Source: Mariprofundus aestuarium (GTDB lineage: Bacteria; Pseudomonadota; Zetaproteobacteria; Mariprofundales; Mariprofundaceae). Taken from it: a DNA stretch of 64,000 bases. This document shows positions 33,071-47,821 of this stretch, in pieces. Positions within the stretch are counted from its first letter, which is position 1. Each line of letters opens with the position of its first letter. The translations under genes and the position numbers were made by a program. The notes beneath the pieces were generated by a model. That model did not search any database. It had not been told where the DNA came from and saw only the letters and a program-made list of their open reading frames with translations. The DNA is taken from the NCBI RefSeq assembly GCF_002795805.1, contig NZ_CP018799.1:1481001-1545000 (forward strand), written 5' to 3'.

Positions 33071-33234
33071 GTGGCGGCTAGCGCTAAGTGATTTGAGACT
33101 CGCCCCTTCTGACCCAGTCTTCCCCAAACAACAGCGATAAACCTCTCGCCCTGAGAAGCAGAGTAGTTCAGGCACACAAAATTCGGCCATTTCCACCTCT
33201 GAAGCTAGTCGATAAATATATTTCCGAACTTTCT

Positions 33235-33263
33235 TTGCACATTCACAAAGCATGGATTATAAT
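33235..33263 (+). promoter_or_regulatory. Strong sigma-70 promoter of the Flp pilin gene
   Basis: TTGCAC (33235-33240), 17 bases, TATAAT (33258-33263), about 45 bases before the flp ATG. Strong -10 and five-of-six -35, fitting an abundant structural pilin. Confidence 0.8.
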
Positions 33264-33309: not shown

Positions 33310-33501
33310 ATGCGTAAATTATACACTAAACTATTGAGCTTCATCCCAGATGTTTATGTCCGGAAAGAACGCGGTGCAACCATGGTTGAATATGCCATTC
33401 TTGTAGCGCTAATTTCAATCGCTGCCATTACAGTTATTATTGTAGTCGGCGAGCAGGTTAATAATGCATTCAACGCAGTCGCTGATGCGATTAACCAATA
33501 G
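33310..33501 (+). CDS. flp: Flp family type IVb pilin (major pilin)
   Basis: 63-residue Flp/Fap pilin. A leader of 22 residues ends at Gly22, then ATMVEYAILVALISI with Glu at +5 and the Glu-Tyr pair typical of Flp, and a short C-terminal tail. GGAGG lies just before the ATG at 33310. First gene of the Tad locus. The processing peptidase (TadV/CpaA) is not encoded in this window. Confidence 0.95.
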   Translation: MRKLYTKLLSFIPDVYVRKERGATMVEYAILVALISIAAITVIIVVGEQVNNAFNAVADAINQ

Positions 33502-33801
33502 CTAGGCAGATCATCCTGCCTGGCTATATGTAAATCAGGCAACTGCTCAAGCCTGCTTTTCGTACTCTCAAAGGCTCAGGGTAAACATTTAACTGGCTGA
33601 TGAGGTTTGTTTAGATATCGAAATGGAGATATCCAGCCACCCATGCGTTGAAAAACGCATGGGTGGGTTCGGCCGCAAGACTAGTTAGCCTATCGGGCGA
33701 TACAGTTACAGTTCACAAGAAGTGAAGCAAACTTTCATCATTTTTAAATTTATCTAAAGCCTTCCAGCGATATTGACCGTTATATCTTGAGGAGGTCTAT
33801 T
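33502..33801 (+). other. 300-base structured spacer between flp and cpaB
   Basis: No gene. Contains a hairpin with GATATC arms (33613-33632 region) followed at once by a 13-bp perfect hairpin with a GAAA tetraloop (33637-33666), then a G/C-rich stretch ending near 33705. No T-run follows the hairpin, so it is not a simple terminator. It may protect the 3' end of the flp message or be a regulated leader of cpaB. The region just before cpaB carries GAGGAGG. Confidence 0.6.
33637..33666 (+). ncRNA. Perfect 13-bp stem with GAAA tetraloop (structured RNA element)
   Basis: CCACCCATGCGTT (33637-33649), GAAA (33650-33653), AACGCATGGGTGG (33654-33666). All 13 pairs are Watson-Crick. GNRA tetraloops are typical of structured RNAs. 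No known riboswitch consensus fits by eye. Confidence 0.5.
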
Positions 33802-34689
33802 ATGCAAAAACGAGCGATAATCATGTTACTTGTCGCGCTAATCATGGGCGGCATCGCCGTGTCGCTGGTGAACACCGCAATCGATCAGAAAGAACAGGAG
33901 CCCGGCGTTGCTGCGCTGACCGTTACACCGGTTGTTGTTGCATCTGTAAACCTTGAGATTGGAACTCGACTGAGCGATGTCATGTTGAAGGTAGTTGACT
34001 GGCCTAAAGAGGCGGCGCCAGAAGGTCTCTACACGTCAATTGAAACAGTCCTCGGTGAAGAGCCACCTGTAGTCGTCAAGGAAATCCGAAAAGGAGAGGC
34101 ACTCCTCCCTTACAAACTCTCCGGACAGGGCGCCCGAGGCGGGCTGACTCCAAGAATCGAGAATGAGATGAGGGCAATGACGATCTCTGTCAACGAAGTT
34201 CGCGGCGTTGCGGGATTTGTGCTTCCAGGCGATCGCGTTGATATCCTCTACACCTCCGCTGTGCCAGACAAGAAGAATGCATATATTACCAAATCTCTTC
34301 TTCAGAACATGCTAGTACTCGGTGTGGATCAATCATCCTCAGAAAAAGAGGACAAGCCTCAGATCGTGAATGCCGTCACCCTGCTGGTATCACCACAACA
34401 GGGAAAGATTCTTACTCTGGCTGGAAAAGCAGGTGATTTAACGCTACTGCTCAGAAATGAGGCTGACGTCTCACTTTCCACTGATGGCAACCTGAGTACC
34501 TCTGATATCGACAAGATGGGGAAAAAAGCATCCTTAGCCAAATCCGGAAAAGGAACCGGTAATTATACCAACGTTCAAGTGATTCGTGGCCTTAGCACCA
34601 GGAACTATACGGTGAAACTGGCTACTCCGGTCAAAACTCCAACAAGCAATAATCCTGGGACTGTACAACAGGAAAGGGGTGGAAAATGA
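33802..34689 (+). CDS. cpaB: Tad pilus assembly protein CpaB/RcpC
   Basis: 295-residue inner-membrane-anchored periplasmic Tad protein. N-terminal membrane helix (IIMLLVALIMGGIAVSLV), SAF domain (ASVNLEIGTRLSDVMLKVVDW and VVVKEIRKGEALLPYKL), then the CpaB-specific RAMTISVNEVRGVAGFVLPGDRVDILYTS. GAGGAGG just before the ATG at 33802. Its TGA overlaps the ATG of the secretin gene (ATGA). Confidence 0.93.
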   Translation: MQKRAIIMLLVALIMGGIAVSLVNTAIDQKEQEPGVAALTVTPVVVASVNLEIGTRLSDVMLKVVDWPKEAAPEGLYTSIETVLGEEPPVVVKEIRKGEALLPYKLSGQGARGGLTPRIENEMRAMTISVNEVRGVAGFVLPGDRVDILYTSAVPDKKNAYITKSLLQNMLVLGVDQSSSEKEDKPQIVNAVTLLVSPQQGKILTLAGKAGDLTLLLRNEADVSLSTDGNLSTSDIDKMGKKASLAKSGKGTGNYTNVQVIRGLSTRNYTVKLATPVKTPTSNNPGTVQQERGGK

Positions 34690-43653: not shown

Positions 43654-45456
43654 ATGTCAGTTAAATATTCCCGTCCACTAAAACAGGGGACCATGATGGT
43701 CTACTGCCTCTTACTTCTTGCAGGATGCACTACCAGCTATGCTATGCTCGACACTATCCGCCCAGTATTTCAGGTAGGTGGCGAAGCAACCCAGTCAAAA
43801 GCTGTGAACAATTATGAAAAAGGTAAGCAGTTATTTGCCGCTGGTAAATACGGCCTGGCACTGGAGGCCTTCCGCCAAGCAAATGCGGAAAGCCCAAACT
43901 CTGTCAATGCATTGAATGGAATTGCCGCCTGTTATGATCAGATTAAACGCCATGATCTTGCAACCAGCTACTACCACAAAGCATTGAACATTCAGCCGGA
44001 TTCGGCAAAAACATTGAGTAATCTCGGTTACTCCTACATGATGCAGGGAAAATATGCCGACGCAGAGAAGGTTCTGCAGCTTGCACTAGTACATGATCCC
44101 AGTAACTCCCGGACTACACATAATCTAGAGATTACACATAACCGGCTAGCCGCAAATAAAGTAGAGCCAACAGTCAATGCCATCGTAATGGCTGAGCCTG
44201 CACCCGTAGCTTCTGCACCCGTAGCTTCTGCACCCGTAGCTTCTGCACCCGTAGCTTCTGCACCCGTAGCTTCTGCACCTGTAGCCGCTGCACCCGTAGC
44301 TTCTGCACCCGTAGCTTCTGCACCTGTAGCCGCTGCACCCGTAGCTTCTGCACCCGTAGCTTCTGCACCCGTAGCTTCTGCACCCGTAGCTTCTGCACCT
44401 GTAGCTTCTGCACCTGTAGCCGCTGCACCCGTAGCTTCTGCACCCGTAGCTTCTGCACCTGTAGCCGCTGCACCCGTAGCTTCTGCACCCGTAGCTTCTG
44501 CACCCGTAGCTTCTGCACCCGTAGCTCCTGCACCCGTAGCTTCTGCACCTGTAGCCGCTGCACCCGTAGCTTCTGCACCCGTAGCTCCTGCACCCGTAGC
44601 TTCTGCACCTGTAGCCGCTGCACCCGTAGCTTCTGCACCCGTAGCTCCTGCACCCGTAGCTTCTGCACCTGTAGCCGCTGCACCCGTAGCTTCTGCACCC
44701 GTAGCCGCTGCAGTACCTGCAAAAGTAGTTGAAGTAAAACCTACTCCTCAACAGCCAGTGAAGGTGGTTGTACTTTCCGTAGGTAACAGGATTGAAATCT
44801 CCAATGGTAATGGCCGCAATGGTATGGCCAAAGCACTGACCAACTTCCTGAAGAGCCGCAACGAATGGGTCTGGAAGATCAGTAACTCCCGTCCATTCAA
44901 TCAGGAAAAGACCACTCTCTATTACCTGTCCGGAAGACAGATTGAAGCTGAACAGCTGGCCATTAAAGTTCCCGCCCCTGTAACCCTTAGGGAAACAGCC
45001 TCCAATAAAAACGACAGCGACCTTCGTCTCGTAATTGGTCACGATTTCATTTACAAGACTGAAAAAGAGATTCATATGATGGCCAAAGTACAGGATAAGG
45101 TTTCGATGCTTTCAGCACACTTCAGCAACGTCCTCATGCCTGCCCGCCTGGAAATCGCCAACGGTAATGGTCGTGAAGGCATGGCTCGACTAATGACAAG
45201 CGTTCTCGCTAGACATGGGCAGACCATCCGCCGGGTTACCAATGCGGATAACTTCGACTATTCATCATCAGTCATCTACTATATGCCAGAACGACGCCAG
45301 GATGCAGAGAAGATCGCGTCCATGCTTCCCGTTAAAGTGGAGATGAAAGAGATGGATATTACACACCGCAGAGTTGATATTCGCATCGTGATCGGTAAAG
45401 ACCTGCTTGAAGCTGTAGATTATTTAACCCTCATCTCAACACTTGGGAATGCATAA
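43654..45456 (+). CDS. Tad-locus TPR lipoprotein-like protein with long Ala/Pro/Val repeat linker and two LytR_C domains
   Basis: 600 residues. An N-terminal hydrophobic stretch with LLLLAGC suggests a lipoprotein. TPR helices (about 50-165: NYEKGKQLFAAGKYGLALE, KHYHKALNIQPD-like repeat). Then 34 copies of APVA(S/A/P) (residues 183-352), encoded by a 15-bp tandem repeat. The C-terminus has two LytR_C (CpsA/Psr C-terminal) domains: one with RIEISNGNGRNGMAKALTNFL, the next with RLEIANGNGREGMARLM. LytR_C domains bind cell-wall glycan/teichoic-type polymers. Possibly spans periplasm to anchor the Tad complex at the wall. Repeat number may vary between strains. Confidence 0.82.
   Translation: MSVKYSRPLKQGTMMVYCLLLLAGCTTSYAMLDTIRPVFQVGGEATQSKAVNNYEKGKQLFAAGKYGLALEAFRQANAESPNSVNALNGIAACYDQIKRHDLATSYYHKALNIQPDSAKTLSNLGYSYMMQGKYADAEKVLQLALVHDPSNSRTTHNLEITHNRLAANKVEPTVNAIVMAEPAPVASAPVASAPVASAPVASAPVASAPVAAAPVASAPVASAPVAAAPVASAPVASAPVASAPVASAPVASAPVAAAPVASAPVASAPVAAAPVASAPVASAPVASAPVAPAPVASAPVAAAPVASAPVAPAPVASAPVAAAPVASAPVAPAPVASAPVAAAPVASAPVAAAVPAKVVEVKPTPQQPVKVVVLSVGNRIEISNGNGRNGMAKALTNFLKSRNEWVWKISNSRPFNQEKTTLYYLSGRQIEAEQLAIKVPAPVTLRETASNKNDSDLRLVIGHDFIYKTEKEIHMMAKVQDKVSMLSAHFSNVLMPARLEIANGNGREGMARLMTSVLARHGQTIRRVTNADNFDYSSSVIYYMPERRQDAEKIASMLPVKVEMKEMDITHRRVDIRIVIGKDLLEAVDYLTLISTLGNA
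44200..44709 (+). repeat. 34-copy 15-bp tandem repeat (minisatellite) in coding sequence
   Basis: Thirty-four back-to-back units of GCACCCGTAGCTTCT and variants (GCACCTGTAGCCGCT, GCACCCGTAGCTCCT) from 44200 to 44709. All units keep the frame. The 3' half shows a higher-order 60-bp period (APVAS APVAA APVAS APVAP), three times, suggesting recent block duplication. No stop codon in any antisense frame, which creates a long spurious reverse ORF. Confidence 0.97.
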
Positions 45457-46750: not shown

Positions 46751-47821
46751 CTAATTGCCAACCTCATAGCATTTCACCGGCGCCCCTCTGTTTTTGACCT
46801 TGATCTCACCCTTGAGTTTCATAGGCACATATGCCTTACAGTATTGATAGGTCTTCTCTCCGACAACAATGCCATGTCCTTCTGACATCTGCTGCAGCCT
46901 GGAGGCAACATTCACGGTATCTCCAATTACGGTATAGTCCATCCTGTTTTTCGATCCCACATTACCCATCACCACATCACCGGTATTGATACCGATACCA
47001 ATCTCAAACACAGGGTAGTTCTTCAAACGAAACTCAGACATCAGGCTTTTAACTCTGGCCTGCATGGCAACAGCCGCCTTCACGGCATTAAGAGGCCCAT
47101 CTTCAGGCTCCCCAATGACACCGAAGGTAGCCATCAACTCATCGCCAATAAATTTATCGAGAATGCCTTGATGTTTAAAAATGATTTTCACCATGGCATC
47201 AAAGTATTCATTGAGCATACCGATCACATCTTCCGGAGCCATATGTTCGGAAATCGTTGTGAATGAACGGATATCGGCAAAAAACATCGTTGCTTCCTGC
47301 TTTGCATTTTGCAGGGGGATATCCTCATCGGAATTAACAATCTTCTCGATTAGGCTTTTATCCACATAACGGCTTAAGCGATTTCGGGAAACCCCCTCCT
47401 CCCTGAGCTTCTGCTGGTAACGCTCAATATCACGGGTATAGACCACCATCTGGGCTGTCATCTCCCGGAAATTTCGGGATGCCAGCTCAGAGTCCGCCAG
47501 AACCGCATTAAAATGCTGAACAATACCTACCAGTTCATCGGGTGTGTTGTCATGAATTTCAATAGCGTATTTATGTTCTGACATCGCCGCTTTACCGGTA
47601 ATGTCTCGCACATTGGAAAGCTGCCTTCCAAACTTGCGAATGACTGAATAGCCAACCAGATGAGCAATCAACGCTATTAGCCCCATCAACAGTAGTTGCG
47701 GTGAAATCTCAACATCAAGGTGAAATACCAGATAGAATGCTAAAAGGTATGGAATAAAACCTATCAGACTGTAACTTGCCTGCTCAATATCTCTGAATCG
47801 AAGTGGCTTTTTTTTCTTCAT
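46751..47821 (-). CDS. Membrane-bound class III adenylate cyclase
   Basis: 356 residues. Two N-terminal membrane helices (GFIPYLLAFYLVFHL and LLLMGLIALIAHLVGYSV), a HAMP-like/coiled region, then a class III cyclase domain. Metal-binding Asp183 (FADIRSFT) and Asp227 (GDE), adenine-specifying Lys223 and Asp296 (DYTVIGDTVN), and transition-state Asn304 and Arg308 are all visible, so an active cAMP-making enzyme is likely. Its start overlaps the stop of the PilZ gene (ATGA), coupling it with a cyclic-di-GMP-binding protein. Confidence 0.88.
   Translation of the reverse strand: MKKKKPLRFRDIEQASYSLIGFIPYLLAFYLVFHLDVEISPQLLLMGLIALIAHLVGYSVIRKFGRQLSNVRDITGKAAMSEHKYAIEIHDNTPDELVGIVQHFNAVLADSELASRNFREMTAQMVVYTRDIERYQQKLREEGVSRNRLSRYVDKSLIEKIVNSDEDIPLQNAKQEATMFFADIRSFTTISEHMAPEDVIGMLNEYFDAMVKIIFKHQGILDKFIGDELMATFGVIGEPEDGPLNAVKAAVAMQARVKSLMSEFRLKNYPVFEIGIGINTGDVVMGNVGSKNRMDYTVIGDTVNVASRLQQMSEGHGIVVGEKTYQYCKAYVPMKLKGEIKVKNRGAPVKCYEVGN

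Follow-up and report, generated by a model that had tools for sequence, protein, structure and literature searches.

Of 34 Escherichia coli operons whose upstream part is stabilised, 26 have a stable hairpin lacking a uridine tract immediately before the end of the stable RNA segment, and malEFG, puf (pufBALMX), cfaAB and papBA are named as earlier cases (excerpts of PMC5927463). A stem-loop of -25.4 kcal/mol together with an RNase E site raised the expression of an upstream reporter gene (excerpts of PMC10667835), and altering the stem-loop between cssB and cssC of the CS6 locus of ETEC changes expression (excerpts of PMC8923064). For the pilus locus considered here, excerpts of PMC5513912 report tadABCDEGZ, rcpAC and flp-1 in Mariprofundus aestuarium CP-5 and M. 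ferrinatatus CP-8, state that EKF-M39 also has a flp/tad cluster, and mention pilZ genes adjoining the cluster.

Here we describe the spacer between flp and cpaB in such a locus. We propose, with a probability of roughly 0.6, that it is an intercistronic 3'-protective element which would make the message of the abundant pilin more stable than that of the assembly genes.

The flp-cpaB spacer and its surroundings

The genome is a single contig of 2,537,610 bases, of which a 64-kb stretch at 1481001-1545000 (hereafter the window) was analysed. After flp, one strand carries cpaB/rcpC, a secretin, TadE/G-like proteins, a TadZ-like ATPase, a TadA-like ATPase and two T2SSF proteins (see Table 1 for positions). 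Flp is known from the pilus field as an abundant product. The flp stop codon (TAG, 33499-33501) and the cpaB ATG (33802) enclose a spacer of 300 nt, exactly the length given in the first-pass annotation, which had also described it as structured. Indeed, the whole spacer folds with an MFE of -101.1 (z -4.75), matched by none of 200 shuffles, and its best local hairpin (-25.7 kcal/mol) was equalled by 1 of 500. The two genes lie 300 nt apart on the same strand, and no terminator-like site was found on the + strand between 33000 and 34000, which hints that flp and cpaB may share one transcript.

Table 1. Positions of the predicted features around the flp-cpaB spacer
Feature	Position in window	Strand	Remarks
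Probable flp promoter, TTTGCA-18 nt-TATAAT	33234..33263	+	10/12 consensus positions
flp, 63-aa Flp/Fap pilin	33310..33501	+	Pfam PF04964, E 1.6e-11
H1, 12-bp hairpin, one G-U, loop ATCATC	33498-33509 / 33516-33527	+	-19.6 kcal/mol, 1/200 shuffles
H2, 6-bp GATATC hairpin, loop GAAATGGA with AUGGA	33614-33619 / 33628-33633	+	weak alone
H3, perfect 13-bp hairpin, GAAA loop, proposed 3'-protective barrier	33637-33649 / 33654-33666	+	-24.3 kcal/mol, 0/200 shuffles
A+T-rich stretch (74% AT) with RN↓WUU-like words, proposed endonuclease entry region	33728..33766	+	downstream of H3
Pre-Shine-Dalgarno and ribosome-binding segment of cpaB (GCGATATTGA..GAGGAGGTC)	33767..33801	+	best conserved spacer part in the close relative G008
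cpaB/rcpC	33802..34689	+	Pfam RcpC, E 1.5e-27, plus SAF

The flp stop codon sits in the 5' arm of H1, a hairpin absent from the first-pass annotation. A terminating ribosome should therefore open H1, and the folding of H1 would report flp translation. The perfect 13-bp stem with a GAAA loop and the second hairpin adjoining it had been pointed out before and were located as H3 and H2, the latter a weak stem of 6 bp; jointly (33608-33670) they reach a z of -7.87 (0/200 shuffles). Their reported lack of a T-run was likewise confirmed, as no such run stands behind H2 or H3 and the nearest T5 (33741-33745) is 75 nt further on. The T-tract of an intrinsic terminator is absent behind H1, H2 and H3 alike. 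Five distinct perfect stems of at least 10 bp with loops of 3-8 occur in the window, H3 being one of them; the other four resemble ordinary bidirectional terminators in their A/T arms, which H3 lacks. Downstream of H3, the RN↓WUU-like motif marked in the table is degenerate, and its words were counted without a chance baseline.

PilZ and cyclase genes nearby had been put forward as a c-di-GMP context, for which the window gives no support. The gene at 46751-47821 (-), beside the tad cluster, encodes a class III adenylate/guanylate cyclase domain, not a diguanylate cyclase, so that cAMP or cGMP rather than c-di-GMP is likely made there. No PilZ domain was found in the 64-kb window at E<=1e-3, and six are encoded elsewhere in the genome. 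Also in the tad cluster, a 600-aa TPR/LytR_C protein (43654-45456, +) has its domains separated by near-identical hexapeptides of the ASAPVA type, repeated in a long tandem run that is likely to vary in length from strain to strain.

Recurrence of the hairpin in related loci

Within the class, cpaB was found in only 2 of 78 genomes, both of the same genus, which suggests that the Tad locus was gained by transfer or widely lost. Searches of genome contigs and viral contigs revealed no further close relatives with the locus. The sole other sampled genome of the class that has it (G008; 2,301,665 bases) keeps the flp promoter region, including the surroundings of the probable promoter at 33234..33263, as well as flp and the last 35-45 nt before cpaB; a stretch of 82% identity covers the segment at 33767..33801 and continues into cpaB. 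The mid-spacer of G008 has no confident alignment to that of the window. Its spacer folds with a z of -3.89 (0/200 shuffles) and contains a 10-bp hairpin about 17 nt past the flp stop and a strong G+C-rich hairpin mid-spacer, the best local hairpin (-28.7 kcal/mol) finding no equal in 500 shuffles. Hairpins are thus present in both genomes (n = 2), with different letters.

Covariation over related Tad loci, the check recommended in the first-pass annotation, was clear in genus g52, a different genus from the window's lineage, which itself offers two genomes. CpaB was matched in 81/81 g52 genomes, the best 30 of which formed the set; the nearest CpaB proteins on named plasmids were mostly from Sinorhizobium and Rhizobium, at <60% identity. 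Here flp directly precedes cpaB in 30/30 loci with spacers of 75-138 nt, and every one of the 30 has a hairpin of 11-17 pairs (-19.0 to -34.3 kcal/mol). The 300-nt spacer of the window is two to four times as long, and the equivalence is therefore one of position and kind. From a plain sequence alignment (n = 30), RNAalifold derived one 12-pair helix with both-side changes in 10/12 pairs and 93.8% of cells paired. In this helix, 56 cells were changed on both sides vs 17.1 in shuffles, and the covariation was 0.477 vs 0.228 in shuffles (0/500), dropping to <=0.146 when the partner was slid by one column; relatedness can lift sequences above such shuffles even in the absence of structure, and a helix has an advantage over its slid versions when it was drawn from the alignment on which it is scored. 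Because many independent pair types are involved and the gap is large, the alignment argues for real selection on the pairing of the g52 hairpin.

The loops and most of the outer stem letters of the g52 hairpins are variable, and a terminator-like T-tail was present in 1/30. The distance from hairpin to cpaB is 34-88 nt, which at the low end leaves little room for a separate promoter, so that transcription probably runs through. In several g52 spacers (e.g. L153, L157 and L165), the main hairpin is followed by another, shorter one (GCGGG..CCCGC) ahead of the ribosome-binding site of cpaB.

Across Pseudomonadota, 155 of 398 genomes had a CpaB match. We assembled a non-random set of 130 loci, namely the best CpaB matches (including the window's genome, G000, and G008) and 100 places chosen among the matches listed; it yielded 83 Flp genes in 66 loci, while 64 loci dropped out with no Flp gene at E<1e-5 within the stretch fetched. 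A hairpin was called unusually stable when the best hairpin was equalled by at most 5 of 100 shuffles. Such a hairpin was found within 80 nt behind the flp stop for 55/83 Flp genes among the matches listed, in a sample rendered non-independent by flp paralogs and related genomes. The same test was passed by 12/83 regions upstream of flp and by 4/83 at +350 nt downstream, a control intended as coding sequence without gene-by-gene confirmation; the median z was -2.4 behind flp, -0.5 upstream and -0.07 at the +350 nt control. Four g52 loci and one locus of the family f17 also form part of this sample. The window's own flp misses the 80-nt test (z 0.14, 51/100 shuffles) because H1 is truncated when the test begins after the stop codon, and H3, which starts 135 nt downstream, lies beyond its reach.

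T-tails were counted for the 75 of 83 flp hairpins that passed the hairpin filter (8 were dropped). They were terminator-like in 32/64 hairpins not tightly before cpaB vs 3/11 tight ones (Fisher p 0.20), and the idea that T-tails are fewer when cpaB follows flp tightly was accordingly set aside as merely a tendency in the phylum sample. In f17, flp was found upstream in 17/30 loci, 16 of these 17 passed the hairpin filter and 5/16 had a T-tail; an attempt to align the f17 spacers gave no usable common alignment.

Explanations for the hairpins

What is seen at the locus is a stable spacer hairpin behind flp that has no uridine tract, as expected of a 3'-protective hairpin. In the proposed sequence of events, RNA polymerase would transcribe from the flp promoter via flp into the tad genes, and the hairpins behind flp, above all H3, are computed to fold in the RNA, with H1 joining once the stop codon is free of the last ribosome. 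As in known systems, the polycistronic RNA may be cut in the unstructured A+U-rich part before cpaB or within the assembly genes, after which the hairpin would halt 3'-to-5' exonucleases. The short flp message would then outlive the assembly-gene RNA and provide the pilin excess needed for the fibre. No ligand would take part; pairing strength and position alone would matter. The first-pass annotation had offered two roles for the spacer, and its processing or stabilising element is favoured by the position, the missing T-tail, the recurrence behind flp genes of Pseudomonadota and pairing covariation without sequence conservation.

If this reading is true, it shows how a single promoter can supply an abundant fibre subunit as well as a scarce Tad assembly machine, and the long spacer is explained without a new riboswitch. 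It would also stand as a sequence-only prediction that can be tested in any culturable Tad-bearing species. More tentatively, at slightly less than even odds, a hairpin directly behind the pilin gene may belong generally to the Tad loci of Pseudomonadota and have arisen anew many times. A strong stem would be selected there while the letters, the loop and even the way it acts (as a terminator with a U-tail or as a decay barrier without one) would be exchanged, since the pilin-to-machine ratio must stay high.

The same ratio could arise from synthesis, not decay, if the hairpins acted as a partial terminator or attenuator that stops or pauses the polymerase (with Rho or NusA) so that a fraction reaches cpaB. 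The position does serve termination in other lineages, as the T-tails on 32/64 flp hairpins in other gene orders imply, and termination or attenuation therefore has a real role there; hairpins with a weak or absent T-tail can, moreover, still terminate in some bacteria. At this locus, however, H1, H2 and H3 have no T-tail, as is the case for 29/30 g52 hairpins, and the A/T arms of the other strong stems in the window mean that ordinary terminators are available to this genome. We consider attenuation unlikely here. Alternatively, flp could be transcribed as a separate unit with a U-less 3' end, and cpaB from a promoter of its own in the 3' part of the spacer. The 135 nt between H3 and cpaB give room for this, the tad locus of P. 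aeruginosa comprises several transcription units, and a sequence with weak resemblance to a promoter (TTCACA-18-CATCAT) is found at 33712-33741. That match has 9/12 positions, though, when shuffles give a mean of 1.6 such matches per region, and by eye it is not kept in G008; in g52 the room shrinks to as little as 34 nt. A separate cpaB promoter appears distinctly improbable.

Two rivals would have the spacer read by a regulator or a ligand. Binding of CsrA to the cpaB leader, with CsrA controlling decay or translation, would fit the AUGGA in the H2 loop, for which G008 has GUGAUGGAUCAC, and the three CsrA genes of the 2.5-Mb genome (loci L136-L138). The loop of H2 provides the one GGA in a loop of the spacer hairpins, a putative CsrA target; but GGA is a very common word, H2 is weak alone, and no similar shared feature was recognised by eye in the g52 loops, which leaves this reading very unlikely. 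The other role offered in the first-pass annotation was a small-molecule-sensing leader, for example a riboswitch for c-di-GMP, and this part of its proposal found no support. The spacer is indeed long and structured. As that annotation had itself noted, however, no known riboswitch consensus fits: no Rfam family, RF01051 included, reached the gathering score in the window, and near the spacer there was a chance-level match only. No conserved unpaired core is shared between G000 and G008, nor within g52, and, unlike those of an aptamer, the letters of loops and stems drift freely in the relatives. A genome-wide c-di-GMP-I search gave no match, but its controls were silent too and it says little. 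On the Rfam result and the missing core in G008 and g52, the riboswitch was rejected as scarcely credible.

Further candidates were discarded on other grounds. A repeat or mobile hairpin (REP, MITE) showed no sign of a family, a 500-base query matching only itself in its own genome. The open reading frames lying wholly in the spacer span just 21-29 aa, which speaks against a hidden small gene, and a tblastn search with 48 Flp seeds for a decayed second flp returned nothing meaningful (best E 0.082).

Comparison with described systems

A search of titles and abstracts found no published description of a hairpin between flp and cpaB; the classic Tad papers fall mostly outside this coverage, so it is weak evidence of absence. 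A protective hairpin is a mechanism known in kind; the new point is that it comes back behind Flp genes, with compensatory changes. The likeness to cases of selective RNA processing and stabilisation (SRPS; PMC8219983 and PMC10667835), namely malEFG, pufBALMX, cfaAB and the E. coli set (excerpts of PMC5927463), lies in a strong hairpin without a U-tract behind the gene needed in excess, where the gene cluster encodes a multi-part structure. H3, computed at -24.3 kcal/mol, has an energy of the same order as the -25.4 kcal/mol stem-loop in excerpts of PMC10667835. Unlike those cases, the flp-cpaB element is known from sequence alone, its single transcript and the stability of flp RNA being predictions, and it recurs at one kind of pilus locus with the pairing kept while the sequence is replaced. 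An intrinsic terminator also has a stable G+C-containing hairpin, but there is no T-tail here.

Two fimbrial systems come close in the kind of gene concerned. In papBA of E. coli, RNA structure likewise makes the pilin message the stable part of an operon's RNA; the protecting structures given in excerpts of PMC5927463 are a hairpin 5' of papA and a terminator 3' of it, whereas the hairpins described here lie 3' of the pilin gene and have no T-tail. The cssB-cssC junction of ETEC CS6 similarly places a stem-loop between fimbrial subunit and assembly genes, but this locus is not a Tad locus and its stem has 7 bp (excerpts of PMC8923064), compared with the stems of 12-13 bp in the flp-cpaB spacer.
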